From contig NZ_KE386947.1 in the NCBI RefSeq assembly GCF_000429725.1, forward strand, positions 21,337-81,124: DNA of 59,788 nucleotides, written 5' to 3'. This DNA is from Alkalicoccus chagannorensis DSM 18086 (GTDB taxonomy: Bacteria; Bacillota; Bacilli; Bacillales; Salisediminibacteriaceae). Shown one piece after another: positions 60 to 59,290 of this stretch (its first letter is position 1; each line of letters begins with the position of its first letter). A program made the position numbers and the translations under genes. Below the pieces are notes generated by a model. It was not told where the DNA came from. It was given only the letters and a program-made list of their open reading frames with translations, and searched no databases.

Positions 60-246
60 AGAGCCGCTGCATGGCGCTGAGTGACCGAGTGCGGCTCCTG
101 AATGTCCGCTGCGTCCGGCCGAGTGACCGCCCAGCGCTGCTGTGACCGCTTTTCCTCCTCAAGCGACTGCTTTTCTCCGCTGAGTGACCGCTCCCGGCCG
201 CGCTGCGTCCGAGCCGGCGCTGCGAACGTCCGATCCGGACCGAATC
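60..246 (+). repeat. 21-bp repeat array, copy 1 (9 units)
   Basis: Nine degenerate units, each marked by a heptamer of the type RTGACCG or RCGTCCG. Heptamers begin at 60, 81, 102, 123, then after a 19-bp step at 142, then 163, 184, 205 and 226. The first (AGAGCCG) is weak. A GGGCTTGGGT motif at 4-13 precedes it, as in the other copies. It lies beyond the 3' end of the MFS gene. Reading frames across it are open only because the period is a multiple of three in GC-rich DNA; no start with a ribosome binding site was seen. Confidence 0.85.
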
Positions 247-8828: not shown

Positions 8829-8831
8829 ACA

Positions 8832-8972
8832 TGATAGGAATGTATAAGTTTTCATAAAGTGTGACGGCGGCTCCATGCGCTGCTCAGGAAGAAACAAAGA
8901 ACGTTTTCTTCCCTCAAAAAGCTTGCAGCGCTTCCGCATGCCGTTCCGACCAAAAGGCGCTTTGCGCTTTTG
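8832..8972 (+). repeat. 140-bp structured repeat, copy 2
   Basis: Full-length copy (TGATAGGAATGTATAAG to GCGCTTTTG), placed directly after a terminator. The central stem GGAAGAAA/TTTCTTCC and the terminal AAAAGGCGCTTTGCGCTTTT hairpin are kept. Confidence 0.9.
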
Positions 8973-8977
8973 TTCAT

Positions 8978-15672: not shown

Positions 15673-15697
15673 AAAAGTAAGAAATTCATCATTCTGA

Positions 15698-15782
15698 TAA
15701 AGGCAAACTTCACCGAAAGGGAAGGACGCAAAGCCATGAGCCTAAGCGCATCTGCGTACGGTTGTCAGGCTGCCGGAGGCCT
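15698..15782 (+). ncRNA. Cyclic di-GMP-I (GEMM) riboswitch
   Basis: The hallmark class I aptamer strings occur in order: AAAGGCAAAC, a GAAA tetraloop stem (CACCGAAAGG), GGACGCAAAGCC, GAGCCTAAG, and the closing CAGGCTGCC. The leader of the gene at 15829 carries it. Downstream, CCTCTTTCC (15780-15788) can pair with the ribosome binding site GGGAAGGGG (15811-15819), suggesting translational control; no intrinsic terminator is seen between aptamer and gene. Confidence 0.92.
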
Positions 15783-21393: not shown

Positions 21394-21400
21394 TTTCAAA

Positions 21401-21540
21401 TGATAGGAATGTATAAGTTTTCATACAGTGTGACGGCGGCTCCATGCGCTGCTCGGGAAGAAACAAAGAACGTTTTCTTCCCTCAAAAAGCTTGCAGCGC
21501 TTCCGCACGCCGTTCCGACCAAAAGGCGCTTTGCGCTTTT
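21401..21540 (+). repeat. 140-bp structured repeat, copy 3
   Basis: Exactly 140 bp from TGATAGGAATG to GCGCTTTT, directly after a terminator. Near-identical to copy 4, which begins six bases later. Confidence 0.95.
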
Positions 21541-21546
21541 GTTCCA

Positions 21547-21686
21547 TGATAGGAATGTATAAGTTTTCATACAGTGTGACGGCGGCTCCATGCGCTGCTC
21601 GGGAAGAAACAAAGAACGTTTTCTTCCCTCAAAAAGCTTGCAGCGCTTCCGCACGCCGTTCCGACCAAAAGACGCTTTGCGCTTTT
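21547..21686 (+). repeat. 140-bp structured repeat, copy 4
   Basis: Tandem partner of copy 3 at a 146-bp offset, differing at very few positions (GGCGC to GACGC in the last hairpin). This implies a recent duplication. Confidence 0.95.
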
Positions 21687-21828
21687 GTTCCCGCTGGCGG
21701 TGTATGTCGGTGGATAAGCGTGCAGACGTTTACGGCGGCTGTCCGTGACGAAAAAAGCAATGCATCAGATCATATGTTCGTGTATAATGGGGCTGTTCCA
21801 CTATCATCAGGAAGCAGGAGATATCATC

Positions 21829-34699: not shown

Positions 34700-34703
34700 G
34701 AAG

Positions 34704-34841
34704 TATAGGAATGTATAAGTTTTCATACAAGAAGACGGCGGCTTCCTGCGCTGCACGGGCAGAAAGAAAACCTCTTTCTTCCCTCGAAAAGCTAGCAGCG
34801 ATGCAGCACGCCGTTCCGACCAAAAGGCGCTTTGCGCTTTT
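34704..34841 (+). repeat. 140-bp structured repeat, copy 6
   Basis: Starts TATAGGAATGTATAAG right after a terminator. The central stem is now AGAAAG/CTTTCT and the final AAAAGGCGCTTTGCGCTTTT is unchanged. Confidence 0.93.
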
Positions 34842-34964
34842 ATTCGTATGCCTGCCCGGAAAGGTAATGGAAGTACTTTTAGATAAAGGTTGGGTTGTTT
34901 TTGTGAGTATTGGAAAACATCGAGGTGATAGGTGAGGAGAAGATGCCATCTCCTCAAGTGCTGA

Positions 34965-35151
34965 ATGACCGCTGGCTCCTGCTGAGTGACCGAGCCGCGG
35001 TGTGGAACGTCCGCTGGAGCGAGCGGAGTGACTGCGCAGCGCCCGAATGACCGCGTTTTACCATTGAATGACTGCCGGCGGCGTCTGAATGACCGCCCGG
35101 AGCCGCGGAACGTCCGAGCCGGCGGCGCGAATGACCGAGCGGCACCATAAC
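34965..35151 (+). repeat. 21-bp repeat array, copy 2 (9 units)
   Basis: Heptamers at 34965, 34986, 35007, 35028, 19-bp step, 35047, 35068, 35089, 35110 and 35131: ATGACCG, GTGACCG, ACGTCCG, GTGACTG, then ATGACCG, ATGACTG, ATGACCG, ACGTCCG, ATGACCG. It is the clearest copy. It does not code for a supported gene. Confidence 0.92.
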
Positions 35152-35196
35152 CACGTACGCGTTCAACCGCGCAGCCCATGATTCCAGTGTTTCCGC

Positions 35197-35283
35197 GACT
35201 GCCCCGGCAGTCGTAGAGCGAAAAGGGCTTGGGTCATCAGCTGTTCTCTCGTTCCGGTTCTGTAAAGCTGAGCTGAATGACCG
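35197..35283 (+). repeat. Leader of the 21-bp element with a single unit (truncated copy)
   Basis: Hairpin GACTGCCCCGGCAGTC (35197-35212), GGGCTTGGGT (35224-35233), and one ATGACCG heptamer (35277-35283), in the same order and spacing as complete copies; later units are lost. Confidence 0.7.
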
Positions 35284-41821: not shown

Positions 41822-43342
41822 TTATTCAACTGCCCATTTCATCCGGTCTGTCAATGTTTGTCGATTTAACTCTCCAGTGTAGTTAAATACTTGAAGGCTG
41901 AACTCGGGTATCTTCTTGGAAGAATATTCTTTCCAGTTGTCACAGACATATTTAAAATCCTCTGCCCGGATTAAAGCGACGTCAGAATCGGTCTCGGAGA
42001 GCGCCTTCAGTCTTTGAGCTTGAGATACCGCTTCTGGTGAAATGTCTGAAGTGATGATCAAGAAGAGCGTTACTCGGTTGTCGTTTGCTCTAATGTAGCC
42101 CAGAAATTGATCAAAATGGTCATTTGGAAAAGTATATGACTCTTCCATGCTTTTATTATCCCACAAAACCGATTCGTTGCTTCCAAATGACAACTTACCA
42201 TCGCTGTGTTTAGAACCCTTCATAGCAACAGGTTTTAAGCCAAGTTTTTTCTCGACAGCATAATGAGTGGCTTGTTCAAAATATTTCTCGATTTCATTAT
42301 CTTTATCAATTACCTTATTTACGCGCAATGGATTGTAATTTCTAGAGGCAAGGTCTTCGATATAGTCGAAATAAAGTGCTCGTTCATCAGTTGGATCAGA
42401 AACTTCCTGTGTAGATAAATCCTCATAATAATCAATGATGTTGCTAATACGCTCGGACTTTGTACCGCTGATGTTGATTCCCTCTAAACTTTTCAGTATT
42501 TCTTTCAGATCACCGTTAGGTAAAGAGTTTAACGCTGAGGAAGGTAGTATGTGATGGCGGAGAATCCGATCGATTAAAGCTGGTTTCGTCCCGGACCCCG
42601 GTAAGTCCATCTGAGTTAAAATCTCTTTCAATTGATTTTTGGATAGATCCTGCAGGAGCATTTCATACGTAGATTGCCTTAATTCGCCGCCCAGCTCATA
42701 CCTGATTGTTCTGGCGATATCTTTAGGGATGATGTAGTAAATATCATCCTCTTTGAATCTTAGGATCAAACCTCTAAGTTGCAGGTGTTTCAATGAATTT
42801 TCTATTTGCTTGAGACTATGAGGTTTATTCCCTTTCTGAGGGAATCTGCCGATTTGGCTCTCTATCAGATAGTGATCTCGTTTAGTTAGTCCGAGTTCTT
42901 CTCTCAACACTGTCAGCATGTTGATTTCATGAGCATTTAAACTTTCATCTTTTTTCCATGCAGCTTTTAACACATTGGAATAGATTCGATAATGATCAGG
43001 ATCGATCACGTTTTTGACATACTCCTCATCCATGCTTTCTTCAACTATTTGTTTCTCTAGTTGTTCTACTTGTTGAATGACTTCCGCTTCGGTTAAGAGA
43101 TAGCCTTCGGTATCCATTAAAGCCATAAGGATCATTTCGTTGATCAAAAAAACATCTCTTTTTTCTTCAGAGAAATCCAGGTTGCGCTTCACACGTTCTT
43201 TGTTTTGAAATTCCTCAATATTTCGTGAAATGACGTCGCGCATTTCCTCTTCATCATTCAACTTCACATCTTTCATAAAACTATCGAGAATTCGGTTTAA
43301 ATACATTTTGCTCATTTTAGGAAGAATATCTTGAACCTTCAT
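41822..43342 (-). CDS. Putative SAP-domain / FokI-like PD-(D/E)XK nuclease
   Basis: A 506-residue protein from DNA far richer in AT than its surroundings, suggesting transfer. Residues 1-130 are helical. About 135-210 look like a winged helix (LTVLREELGLTKRDHYLI ... YYIIPKDIA). Two SAP-like repeats follow: LSKNQLKEILTQMDLPGSGT (233-252) and NGDLKEILKSLEG..SGTKSERI (277-299). The C-terminal part (about 350-480) fits a restriction-endonuclease core: Glu356 region, Asp381 (SDGKLSFGS), then Asp395-x-Lys397 (VLWDNKS), with DQFLGYIRANDNR after it. This order resembles the FokI cleavage domain (PDG...VDTK...Y). No methyltransferase is adjacent. AAGGAGG precedes the start. Function is inferred. Confidence 0.7.
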   Translation of the reverse strand: MKVQDILPKMSKMYLNRILDSFMKDVKLNDEEEMRDVISRNIEEFQNKERVKRNLDFSEEKRDVFLINEMILMALMDTEGYLLTEAEVIQQVEQLEKQIVEESMDEEYVKNVIDPDHYRIYSNVLKAAWKKDESLNAHEINMLTVLREELGLTKRDHYLIESQIGRFPQKGNKPHSLKQIENSLKHLQLRGLILRFKEDDIYYIIPKDIARTIRYELGGELRQSTYEMLLQDLSKNQLKEILTQMDLPGSGTKPALIDRILRHHILPSSALNSLPNGDLKEILKSLEGINISGTKSERISNIIDYYEDLSTQEVSDPTDERALYFDYIEDLASRNYNPLRVNKVIDKDNEIEKYFEQATHYAVEKKLGLKPVAMKGSKHSDGKLSFGSNESVLWDNKSMEESYTFPNDHFDQFLGYIRANDNRVTLFLIITSDISPEAVSQAQRLKALSETDSDVALIRAEDFKYVCDNWKEYSSKKIPEFSLQVFNYTGELNRQTLTDRMKWAVE

Positions 43343-43987: not shown

Positions 43988-44174
43988 GCTTGGTGCGGGA
44001 GCGGACACTCGGGACGCTGGAGCGGACGTTCGGCGGCTGAGAGCGGACGCTCAGCGCTGCACAGCAGTCATTCAGACGGAAAAAGCGGCCCTTCAGGTGT
44101 TCAGCGGTCATTCAGAGAAGCGGAACGGACGTTCAGCCGCCGCCAGCGGACGTTCAGCGCGTTCGAGCGGACGT
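43988..44174 (-). repeat. 21-bp repeat array, copy 3 (9 units, inverted)
   Basis: Reading the minus strand, heptamers begin at plus-strand positions 44168, 44147, 44126 and 44105, then after a 19-bp step 44086, followed by 44065, 44044, 44023 and 44002. Cores include ACGTCCG, ATGACCG, AGGGCCG and ATGACTG. The leader hairpin CGGCTGCCGGGGCAGCCG is at 44246-44263, on the unit-1 side as in other copies. A CCCCGGCTGCCGGGG hairpin at 43941-43955 bounds the other end. Confidence 0.9.
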
Positions 44175-44432
44175 TCGATCCAAATAGCAGCTTCGATTGC
44201 ATCACCCCAGTCACCCTGCTGATGAACCAGGCCCATCCGGTTTCCCGGCTGCCGGGGCAGCCGCTGGAAAAAGGAATAGAGGGGGGACGTGTCCGCCGCC
44301 CGTGCTCTCGTGTCTTCTCGACCGAAAAAAGAGGAGCCTCCGTTCAAGAAGGCTCCTCTTCCGGTATAAGCACAACATTTCTTCGAGGCTGCAGCGTTCG
44401 CTCCCCTTGTACCAATGAACCGAGTGTCATGT

Positions 44433-50446: not shown

Positions 50447-51105
50447 CCAGAGTGGACGGGTTGATTCTCGCAGCAGGCATGTCCACTAGAATGGGCAGAC
50501 CGAAAATGCTGCTGAAGCTGGACGGGCGTCCGTTGATTCAGTGGGCAGTCTCTACGGCACTGGACGTCTGCGACCACGTCTATATCGCGGCCGGACGAGA
50601 ACATCGACTGATCCGCCGGCTGACGGCGCATCCCCGGGTGGAAGTACTCTACAACCCGGAGTATCAGGCCGGGCAGGGCACGTCACTCGCCCGCGGCATC
50701 GAAGCACTGGAAACGGAGACCGACGGCATGATGGTTTTCCTCGCAGATCAACCGTTCATTCCCGTCCCGGTAGCGGCCCGCGTCCGGGAACAGGGCGAAG
50801 AAGCGATGCACCGCTACAAACGCGGCTTTGCCGTACAGCCGGTCTGCCGCAGCATTCCCGCACACCCGGTTTTCTGGGGACGGCCGCAGGGACTGCCGCC
50901 GATCCGTCGTGGAGACAGGGCAGGAAAGGCCTTGATGCAGGCCCTTCCGGTGGAAACGATCGCCGTCCGGGAAGCGTGGACGACCTTTGATATTGATACA
51001 CCCGAACAATGGCACCAGGCAGGAGAGCTTGTCTCTCGTTTTGATTTTTCGTACAACTTCCGAAATACGGTCGGAAGGTCTCTGGCAGGAACCGGAAATT
51101 CCTGA
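50443..51105 (+). CDS. pucB: Molybdenum cofactor cytidylyltransferase-like NTP transferase (MobA/MocA type)
   Basis: A 220-residue nucleotidyltransferase. The N-terminal LILAAGMSTRMGRPKMLLKLDG (residues about 7-28) is the NTP-binding signature, with FLADQPF as the metal site. It should make the dinucleotide form of the molybdenum cofactor for xanthine dehydrogenase. Overlaps pucA by ATGA. Confidence 0.88.
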   Translation: MTRVDGLILAAGMSTRMGRPKMLLKLDGRPLIQWAVSTALDVCDHVYIAAGREHRLIRRLTAHPRVEVLYNPEYQAGQGTSLARGIEALETETDGMMVFLADQPFIPVPVAARVREQGEEAMHRYKRGFAVQPVCRSIPAHPVFWGRPQGLPPIRRGDRAGKALMQALPVETIAVREAWTTFDIDTPEQWHQAGELVSRFDFSYNFRNTVGRSLAGTGNS

Positions 51106-51186
51106 CTACGAAAAACGTTTAAGACACGTTTACGTCATGCAGAAGTCAAAACAAGGGACGAACGAGCCCGCTACAGGAGGAAAATC

Positions 51187-58636: not shown

Positions 58637-59290
58637 TCCGCTCCGATTCCAAACGACGGGTATGATCGATAACCTCCGTACCTTCGATGGACTTTTTTCC
58701 AGCGGCTGCCCGGGCAGCCGGAGACCGGAAGGAGCTTGGGTAACGGAAGGTTTTCGGGTTGTGGGAGGGGATATCGGCGGCTTGCGCCCGAAGCGCCGCT
58801 GGCGGGCTCCGAGCGTCCGAGCCCGGCGGCGGAACGTCCGCTGCGTCTTCCGAAGTGACCGCCCAGAGCCGATAGGGCCGCTGGTGCGGCTGCAGCGTCT
58901 GCTTTGGCCGTCCTTGCGTCCGCCCACGGCCGCGCTGCGTCCGAGCGGCCGGCTGCAGCGTCCGCTCCGGTTCCAAACGACGGACATGATCGATAACCTC
59001 CGTGCCTTCGATGGACTTTTTTCCAGCGGCTGCCCGGGCAGCCGGAGACCGGAAGGAGCTTAGCTAACTGGAGGTTTTCGGGTTGTGGAAGGGGATGTCG
59101 GCGGCTTGCGCCCGAAGCGCCGCTGGCGGGCTCCGAGTGTCCGAGCCCGGCGGCGGAACGTCCGCTGCGTCTTCCGGAGTGACCGCCCAGAGCCGATAGG
59201 GCCGCTGGTGCGGCTGCAGCGTCTGCTTTGGCCGCCCAAGCGTCTGCCCCCGGCTGCGCTGCGTCCGAGCGTCCGACTGCAGCGTCCGCT
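58637..59290 (+). repeat. Tandem duplication of a 324-bp block containing the 21-bp element
   Basis: Two direct copies at a 324-bp offset (for example ATGATCGATAACCTCCGT at 58662 and 58986). Each holds the CGGCTGCCCGGGCAGCCG hairpin (58703-58720 and 59027-59044), a GAGCTTGGGT-like motif (decayed in the second), and one nine-unit array. Confidence 0.93.
58792..58978 (+). repeat. 21-bp repeat array, copy 4 (9 units)
   Basis: Heptamers at 58792, 58813, 58834, 58855, 19-bp step, 58874, 58895, 58916, 58937 and 58958. The fifth is AGGGCCG, as in copy 3, and the sixth ends CTG, as in all copies. Confidence 0.92.

Follow-up and report, generated by a model that had tools for sequence, protein, structure and literature searches.

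Nine-unit direct-repeat arrays of near-invariant 4+5 geometry in Alkalicoccus chagannorensis, a candidate protein-binding DNA platform

The genome of Alkalicoccus chagannorensis DSM 18086 contains 99 nine-unit elements at 63 places (hereafter clusters) in the 1.90 Mb sampled of its 3.52-Mb sequence. Their short direct repeats follow one another at 21-bp steps, with a 19-bp step after unit 4. Nine units with a break after unit 4 are common to this genome and to another species of the genus under four different motifs, and a looser form with a fifth motif occurs in a further genome of the genus. We consider, with a probability of roughly 0.4, that the arrays are a selected protein-binding DNA platform; a role in organising the origin region is proposed more weakly.

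The window, i.e. the whole stretch of 59,788 nt that was analysed, contains five arrays of the first motif family (class A). They cover positions 60–232 (+ strand; unit 1, AGAGCCG, is weak), 34965–35137 (+; the array originally noted), 44002–44174 (−), 58792–58964 (+) and 59116–59288 (+). The last two are copies 1 and 2 of a 324-bp tandem duplication (93% matching) and are therefore not independent of each other. A plain heptamer pattern finds nine of nine units in the array at 34965 and seven or eight in the other four, whose remaining units (e.g. AGGGCCG and AGCGCCG) were read at the fixed step. The initial annotation had reported nine heptamers per array at these five places, and its steps (21, 21, 21, 19, 21, 21, 21, 21), its first-to-last distance of 166 bp, its unit 6 ending in CTG (five of five arrays) and its unit 5 reading AGGGCCG (three of five) are all confirmed. 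The places that it gave are correct, but its extents are replaced by the bounds above, which the units actually cover. A single unit, ATGACCG, at 35277–35283 (+) is a truncated second copy following a hairpin at 35190–35235.

We then examined copy number and geometry in the whole genome. A blastn search with a window element gives at least 48 matches in the own genome (40 of 77 candidates scored). Fixed-geometry scans, with thresholds of 38 and 34 bits, count 54 elements of class A and 45 of class B in the 1.90 Mb sampled; most class A scores lie far over the threshold, class B scores reach down to it, and the samples of several contigs (e.g. C5, C9, C10, C12, C14, C16 and C29) were picked around hits. 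A chain search in which no spacing was assumed recovers the same steps in most copies, on eight contigs. Its exceptions are truncated copies (six units and then a hairpin head at C16:37132; the single unit at window position 35277), an 18-bp break at C2:181189 and a 22-bp step at C17:14548. With elements containing N omitted (two of 54 and two of 45), 446 of 468 class A units (52 elements) and 359 of 387 class B units (43 elements) are exactly in place. All nine units are in place in 33/52 class A and 21/43 class B elements, and most misses concern unit 1: in class A it is in place in 37 of 52 elements, against 49–52 of 52 for each of units 2–9 (together 409/416). The geometry in this genome is near-invariant rather than strictly invariant. 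Unit 6 ends in CTG in 37 of 52 class A elements, compared with one to nine of 52 for the other units. This genome-wide bias indicates that class A units correspond position by position, and bears out the unit-by-unit correspondence claimed earlier from the window.

A motif-blind scan, in which nine 7-mers at preset offsets are scored by their summed column information and no motif is given, was run for 79 geometries. Steps of 21 bp with 19 bp after unit 4 yield 70 loci. Among the other 78 geometries, the mirror geometry also yields 70 because the score is blind to strand, the next two yield 22, multiples of three yield 7–10 (probably coding repeats) and the median is 0. At a lower threshold, above 8.0 bits, there are 83 hits, 50 of which overlap class A or B elements on the same strand. 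The remaining 33 appear by eye to be class A units in reverse complement, i.e. opposite-strand readings, and a third motif class in this genome was accordingly rejected. A simple tandem repeat (minisatellite) was likewise rejected: the elements of this genome have nine units and the spacers have diverged.

Two motif families are present in the own genome: class A, RYGWCYG, and class B, GYGGCTCAAAA. In class A the heptamer forms the core of a longer motif, roughly CNGARYGWCYGCYC, and the rest of the 21-bp cell is weakly informative (averaged over units). Class B, which was found through a search for hairpin heads and has the same head type as class A, consists of nine units with the 19-bp step after unit 4 and, towards the end of the array, one or two additional 22-bp steps; part of these readings was anchored on the 19-bp junction. 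It gives at least 44 blastn matches (40 of 73 candidates scored), and 46 matches (up to one mismatch) to a pattern of the junction between units 4 and 5. The same pattern has no match in viral_contigs or genome_contigs and occurs in one of 35 family genomes, namely the own one (near relatives are perhaps lacking from these collections).

Of 40 class A copies, 39 were aligned (a copy with a 1-bp shift was left out). Sites and spacers were compared in the 351 pairs of 27 non-redundant copies with <80% identity to each other. In the 15 most diverged pairs (spacers <40%, on average 38% identical), the heptamers are 70% identical and core positions 3, 5 and 7 are 91% identical. In the 149 pairs with spacers 40–50% identical, the corresponding values are 72% for heptamers and 92% for core positions. 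Unit 4 and its spacer form the most conserved stretch of class A by eye. These comparisons suggest that the sites are under selection.

Many arrays are preceded by a hairpin 'head', CGGCTGCC-NN-GGCAGCCG, followed by AGGGCTTGGGT or a variant, and several tandem clusters run head–array–head–array–head. The head, the second motif family and the uneven chromosomal spread described below are all absent from the initial annotation. In the window, heads lie at 58692–58741 (+; 7-bp stem and 4-base loop, then GGAGCTTGGGT, as read from the sequence) and at 59016–59065 (+; second tandem copy), 5′ of the arrays at 58792 and 59116, respectively. Others lie at 44224–44272 (−), 5′ of the minus-strand array, and at 35190–35235 (+), 3′ of the array at 34965, where the stem has a paired change relative to the other heads; the end of a further head is cut by the window's left edge (1–13, +). 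The window heads fold with a 7-bp stem, and their energy is ordinary for their composition (z about −1). By eye, 10 of 14 single copies examined have no head within 230 bp upstream. The head is optional, and is perhaps tied to the multiplication of copies. Also, a transposase-like gene seemingly interrupts a class B array on contig C25 (L045, about 1–1000, by eye).

A separate 146-bp hairpin repeat is present in the window at 2795–2936, 8831–8975 and 21400–21691 (two tandem copies), and by eye also at about 34700–34850. With 40 of 278 candidates scored, at least 58 genomic matches are listed; 45 of these are 90–100% identical, and the repeat looks like a recently mobile sequence. It occurs on most contigs, at times adjoining nine-unit arrays, and has no Rfam match within the window.

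We then searched for the geometry in other species. Blastn gives no array match in 39 other genomes, the one match (G035) reading like a coding repeat, and the class A profile gives no further match within the genus. Both searches missed arrays that the motif-blind scan detects. In G002, another species of the genus, 120 kb taken regardless of position contain two arrays (motif-blind scores 11.3 and 9.25). The first, with motif AAAGAYCGCCAY, has steps of exactly 21, 21, 21, 19, 21, 21, 21 and 21, and a break after unit 4 fits it best (117.8 vs 105.4 for the next). The second, with motif TGGTCCGAT, has nine units at steps of 21, 22, 21, 19, 21, 21, 21 and 21; because of its 22-bp step, a single-break fit slightly prefers a break after unit 2 to one after unit 4 (82.1 vs 77.4). 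In G003, a complete genome of the same genus (3.69 Mb, dnaA at 1 kb), a motif-blind scan of 400 kb, mostly origin side, gave arrays L264 and L268, and a search with the motif of these two, TTAAYAGAACC, added L265. L264 has nine units (steps 21, 21, 21, 19, 18, 21, 21, 21). In L268 six units are clear, and a 19-bp step separates them into three and three; its nine-unit fit favours a break after unit 5 (87.9) over unit 4 (80.5), so that a 4+5 reading requires the opposite strand. The eight units of L265 (steps 21, 14, 19, 22, 21, 21, 21) are divided by the 19-bp step into a first three and a last five. All five arrays of G002 and G003 are located outside predicted genes. Across both samples (620 kb, 81 geometries), the break between units 4 and 5 gives four hits, its mirror four and the next geometries three; this separation is weak, and the likely reason is that one array can be counted again in a shifted reading. 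A G003 terminus sample has no 4+5 hit, in 100 kb that are too few to show absence.

Copies with another unit number or slip position, which the initial annotation had named as evidence against its pattern, are limited to truncations in the own genome, where the slip stays after unit 4, and both G002 arrays agree with this; all three G003 arrays, however, vary. Its description of the layout as invariant is thus nearly correct for the first two genomes and does not extend to the whole genus. That the 4+5 pattern reflects far more than recent duplication is supported by two families in the own genome and two further motifs in G002. A G-W-Y-Y-G core is common to three of the motifs by eye, so drift of one recognition family appears likelier than unrelated inventions. 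Ordinary homology searches cannot see an element that keeps its geometry but exchanges its motif, and more may therefore exist.

Outside the genus, the class A profile matches five other genomes among 299 of the order (the own genome included). Four of these contain 21-bp heptamer chains with no 4+5 break; the chain of G027 has two 20-bp steps, and G317 gave no chain at a 21-bp unit. These matches may or may not be related to the arrays, since a profile favours look-alike motifs. The G027-type pattern has no match in genome_contigs. Other genera of the order thus have simple 21-bp tandem arrays that look intergenic (L108 1400–1900, L109, L110, L111, L112 and L116). Most share a core resembling GYGWCYG; the longest reach some 20 units, and a 4+5 break is absent. 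A sigma-70-like regulator (regions 2 and 4) stands beside a conserved neighbour gene at L264 14215–14763 (G003) and L045 1833–2378 (C25), and an array is close to this regulator gene in both species, but on different sides. In L265, on the − strand, a terminator hairpin with a parS-like 16-mer (14/16 vs the consensus) lies shortly 5′ of the array.

The spread of elements over the contigs of A. chagannorensis is firmly uneven. In the 724 kb sampled of contigs C2, C6, C8 and C17 there are 54 elements; C8 and C17 were sampled partly around hits, and the nearly complete C2 and C6 hold 23 elements in 532 kb. The dnaA gene is on C6. By contrast, contigs C1, C3, C19, C21, C22 and C24, which project to 1.37–2.18 Mb of G003 (hereafter the terminus set), hold none in 610 kb. 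Counted by clusters, the difference is 35 vs 0 (p 6e-10). Contigs C4, C7, C11, C15, C18, C20, C23 and C26 hold two elements in 330 kb, one each on C4 and C7. As a control, the terminus set holds 14 of the 58 listed matches of the 146-bp hairpin repeat vs none of the 92 listed array matches, both from blastn with at most 40 candidates scored per genome. Array-rich contigs project on G003 to 3.48–3.53 Mb (C2, with one weak match at 3.66), 3.14 Mb (C8), 0.44 Mb (C29), 0.59 Mb (C16) and, by a short match, near 0.39 Mb (C17). C10, with 15 elements, is off the origin-side pattern and projects to 2.41 Mb in G003 and 3.19 Mb in G012. In G012, which belongs to another genus with other gene order, the distance to dnaA is 1.16 Mb for the C8 gene and only about 0.8–1.1 Mb for genes of the array-free C3, C19, C22 and C24. 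It is therefore the projection on G003, and this projection alone, that suggests an origin-side placement.

Gene context is also non-random. All but one of the 99 elements extend at most 60 bp into genes predicted by codon usage, and two to six elements are grouped in tandem in 25 of the 63 clusters. The 60 clusters with both neighbours known occupy 25 convergent, 30 tandem and 5 divergent gaps. Compared with 666 gaps of 150 bp or more (164 convergent, 361 tandem and 141 divergent), clusters are over-represented in convergent gaps (25/60 vs 164/666, p 0.006) and rare in divergent ones (5/60 vs 141/666, p 0.018). Arrays are co-oriented with the upstream gene in 46 cases and opposed to it in 16; this bias was discarded as a signal, coming mostly from convergent gaps (tandem gaps: 21 vs 11 of 32, p 0.11). 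Judged by local GC skew, class B arrays point with the leading strand in 23 of 27 clusters that could be assigned unambiguously (of 28), and class A arrays in 14 of 32 (of 35). Narrower skew intervals, with fewer clusters, give 22/24 and 10/31, respectively. Class B thus follows the replication direction and class A does not, a difference that a single role leaves unexplained.

Among 12 window genes compared with family libraries, those that match are metabolic, transport, regulatory or nuclease-like. A protein of 506 aa that combines a SAP domain with a FokI-type cleavage domain (41822–43342, −), possibly a defence nuclease, adjoins the minus-strand array. Two riboswitches, c-di-GMP-I and purine, are present at the Rfam gathering level at 15692–15777 and 51029–51128, respectively.

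A step of 21 bp corresponds to two helical turns, so that sites 1–4 lie on one side of the helix, and the 19-bp step rotates sites 5–9 by about 69 degrees. Site number, helical lattice and phase change are fixed and the motif changes, a combination that fits a protein complex whose assembly sets the geometry. The conserved binding platform on one DNA face that the initial annotation had suggested is the reading that fits best, with protein binding itself still a prediction; the structured RNA that it had also considered finds no consensus fold on the + strand with RNAalifold. In the mechanism that we propose, a sequence-specific protein would occupy all nine sites as head-to-tail neighbours within a single complex, wrapped or filamentous. 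The geometry of this complex would fix site number and spacing, and the recognition surface of the protein and its sites would drift together. More weakly, such complexes might gather, fold or anchor origin-proximal DNA in a centromere-like manner, as RacA and ram do in Bacillus subtilis; the spread of elements over the chromosome suggests a role in segregation or folding of this kind. A more specific version is somewhat more tentative: the fixed nine-site 4+5 geometry would be a 'standard socket' with a motif swapped between families and species, serving an undescribed, fast-evolving direct-repeat-binding protein that organises or segregates the origin half in a bacterium without detected RacA.

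Several observations could also be accommodated by a non-autonomous mobile or selfish element, in which the nine sites would be a docking array for a trans-acting transposase or replication initiator and the head a processing site, with spread in tandem and by dispersal that avoids genes. Such an element would account for the tandem clusters, the hairpin heads and the scarcity of copies in genes and in divergent gaps. Class B follows the replication direction, as is possible for elements that enter lagging-strand DNA, and the motif turnover resembles the divergence of iterons or transposase sites. We nevertheless regard this origin as unlikely, although it deserves more weight than the other alternatives. 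Copies at different places are old (27 class A lineages at <80% identity, most pairs with spacers 40–60% identical), and their sites are intact, which dead copies would not keep. The frequent lack of a head upstream of single copies also argues against it, as does the contrast with the 146-bp repeat, most of whose listed copies (45 of 58) are nearly identical and which occurs on many array-free contigs. Terminal repeats, target duplications and a linked transposase did not come to light in an unsystematic reading of the copies. Descent without function appears improbable as well. One ancestral tandem array with one 2-bp deletion, copied many times, would explain the position-by-position match of class A units; simple 21-bp tandem arrays in five other genera of the order make an origin by slippage plausible, and the G003 arrays are irregular. 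Neutral decay, however, would strike sites and spacers alike and add indels, whereas sites and spacing are kept at 38–50% spacer identity, and neutral change of one array would hardly lead to several motifs in some nine copies each.

A structured or regulatory RNA, or an RNA sponge whose nine sites would capture a protein or small RNA, is improbable. It would fit arrays that are often 3′ of a gene's terminator (by eye) and that point with the upstream gene in 21 of 32 tandem gaps, but that orientation bias is not significant, 25 of 60 clusters are in convergent gaps, and a 21-nt helical lattice is meaningless in unpaired RNA. On the + strand, RNAalifold gives 0.0 vs −1.8 (40 copies) and −1.5 (28 copies) in column shuffles, i.e. 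no consensus fold. The − strand of 28 non-redundant copies gives −3.5 vs −0.6 (sd 1.0) in shuffles, with two short helices, and that of all 40 copies −1.5 vs −1.2. No Rfam family matches the window arrays at the gathering level. A coding repeat of heptapeptides (21 bp being seven codons) is practically negligible: the step is a multiple of three and open frames cross some arrays, but 98 of the 99 elements avoid the genes that codon usage predicts and the 19-bp step breaks the reading frame, on which ground we reject it. The protein-binding platform thus remains our preferred reading. On this reading, the arrays allow the co-evolution of a DNA-binding protein with some hundred sites to be tested, and they suggest how a bacterium in which RacA is not found might manage its origin region.

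None of the definitions of known families that were compared describes the arrays. The parS site of ParB is a 16-bp palindrome, TGTTNCACGTGAAACA, and no unit class resembles it by eye. REP/BIME sequences are extragenic palindromes with >100 copies per genome that are tied to tyrosine transposases (PMC2817692, PMC3686654). The arrays are likewise extragenic and number about a hundred, but their unit is non-palindromic and arrays without a head exist. BldC is a MerR-like protein that binds direct repeats head to tail in varying number, and its filaments involve 9-bp sites with an AATT element at promoters, unlike the arrays here (PMC5859096). Structured RNA families are distinguished by their folds, and here the + strand has none, the − strand has two short helices and Rfam has no match at the arrays. 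Literature covered by titles and the first part of abstracts, with subscription journals poorly represented, holds no description of such an element, which is weak evidence of novelty.

The ram site of B. subtilis is a GC-rich inverted repeat, whereas the nine-site arrays are made of direct, directional and non-palindromic units. The ram sites are many, dense near the origin and bound by RacA, which tethers the chromosome to the cell pole (PMC6593407, PMC9564211). The arrays resemble them in number; a density near the origin would follow from projection on G003, but C10 is off the pattern and the gene order of G012 blurs the split. RacA as the array-binding protein was rejected: it is not detected in the A. 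chagannorensis genome (G000), where model NF009647 gives only a CarH-like regulator (E 3e-8) below its cut-off; the model is also below its cut-off in the B. subtilis control, and a strongly diverged RacA could escape it. PF13411 finds a CarH-like protein, a TnrA-like protein and a short ORF in the same genome. In seven other genomes of the genus, matches are weak and the best one is a CarH-like protein of ~300 aa (G006 also has a weak 175-aa match, E 1.4e-4), and RacA-like proteins of 170–200 aa are present in six of seven other genera of the family examined.

Plasmid partition sites provide the closest parallels. In the parS region of plasmid pSM19035, heptads are contiguous and overlap promoters, in contrast to one heptamer per 21 bp in the chromosomal arrays. 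Its sites of 9, 7 and 10 iterons, which recall the nine-unit arrays, are bound by omega as a protein helix wrapping the DNA (PMC5016525). The nearest working model is offered by the type II and III centromeres parC/ParR and tubC/TubR. These consist of direct repeats that are at times split in blocks and whose spacing varies by family; ParR binds the direct repeats, which differ between families, and the DNA wraps around it as a solenoid (PMC9426499, PMC5016525). The arrays share the direct repeats, with binding predicted, and differ in setting: parC and tubC are located on plasmids, each upstream of the motor operon that it serves, whereas the arrays here are chromosomal and number about a hundred.
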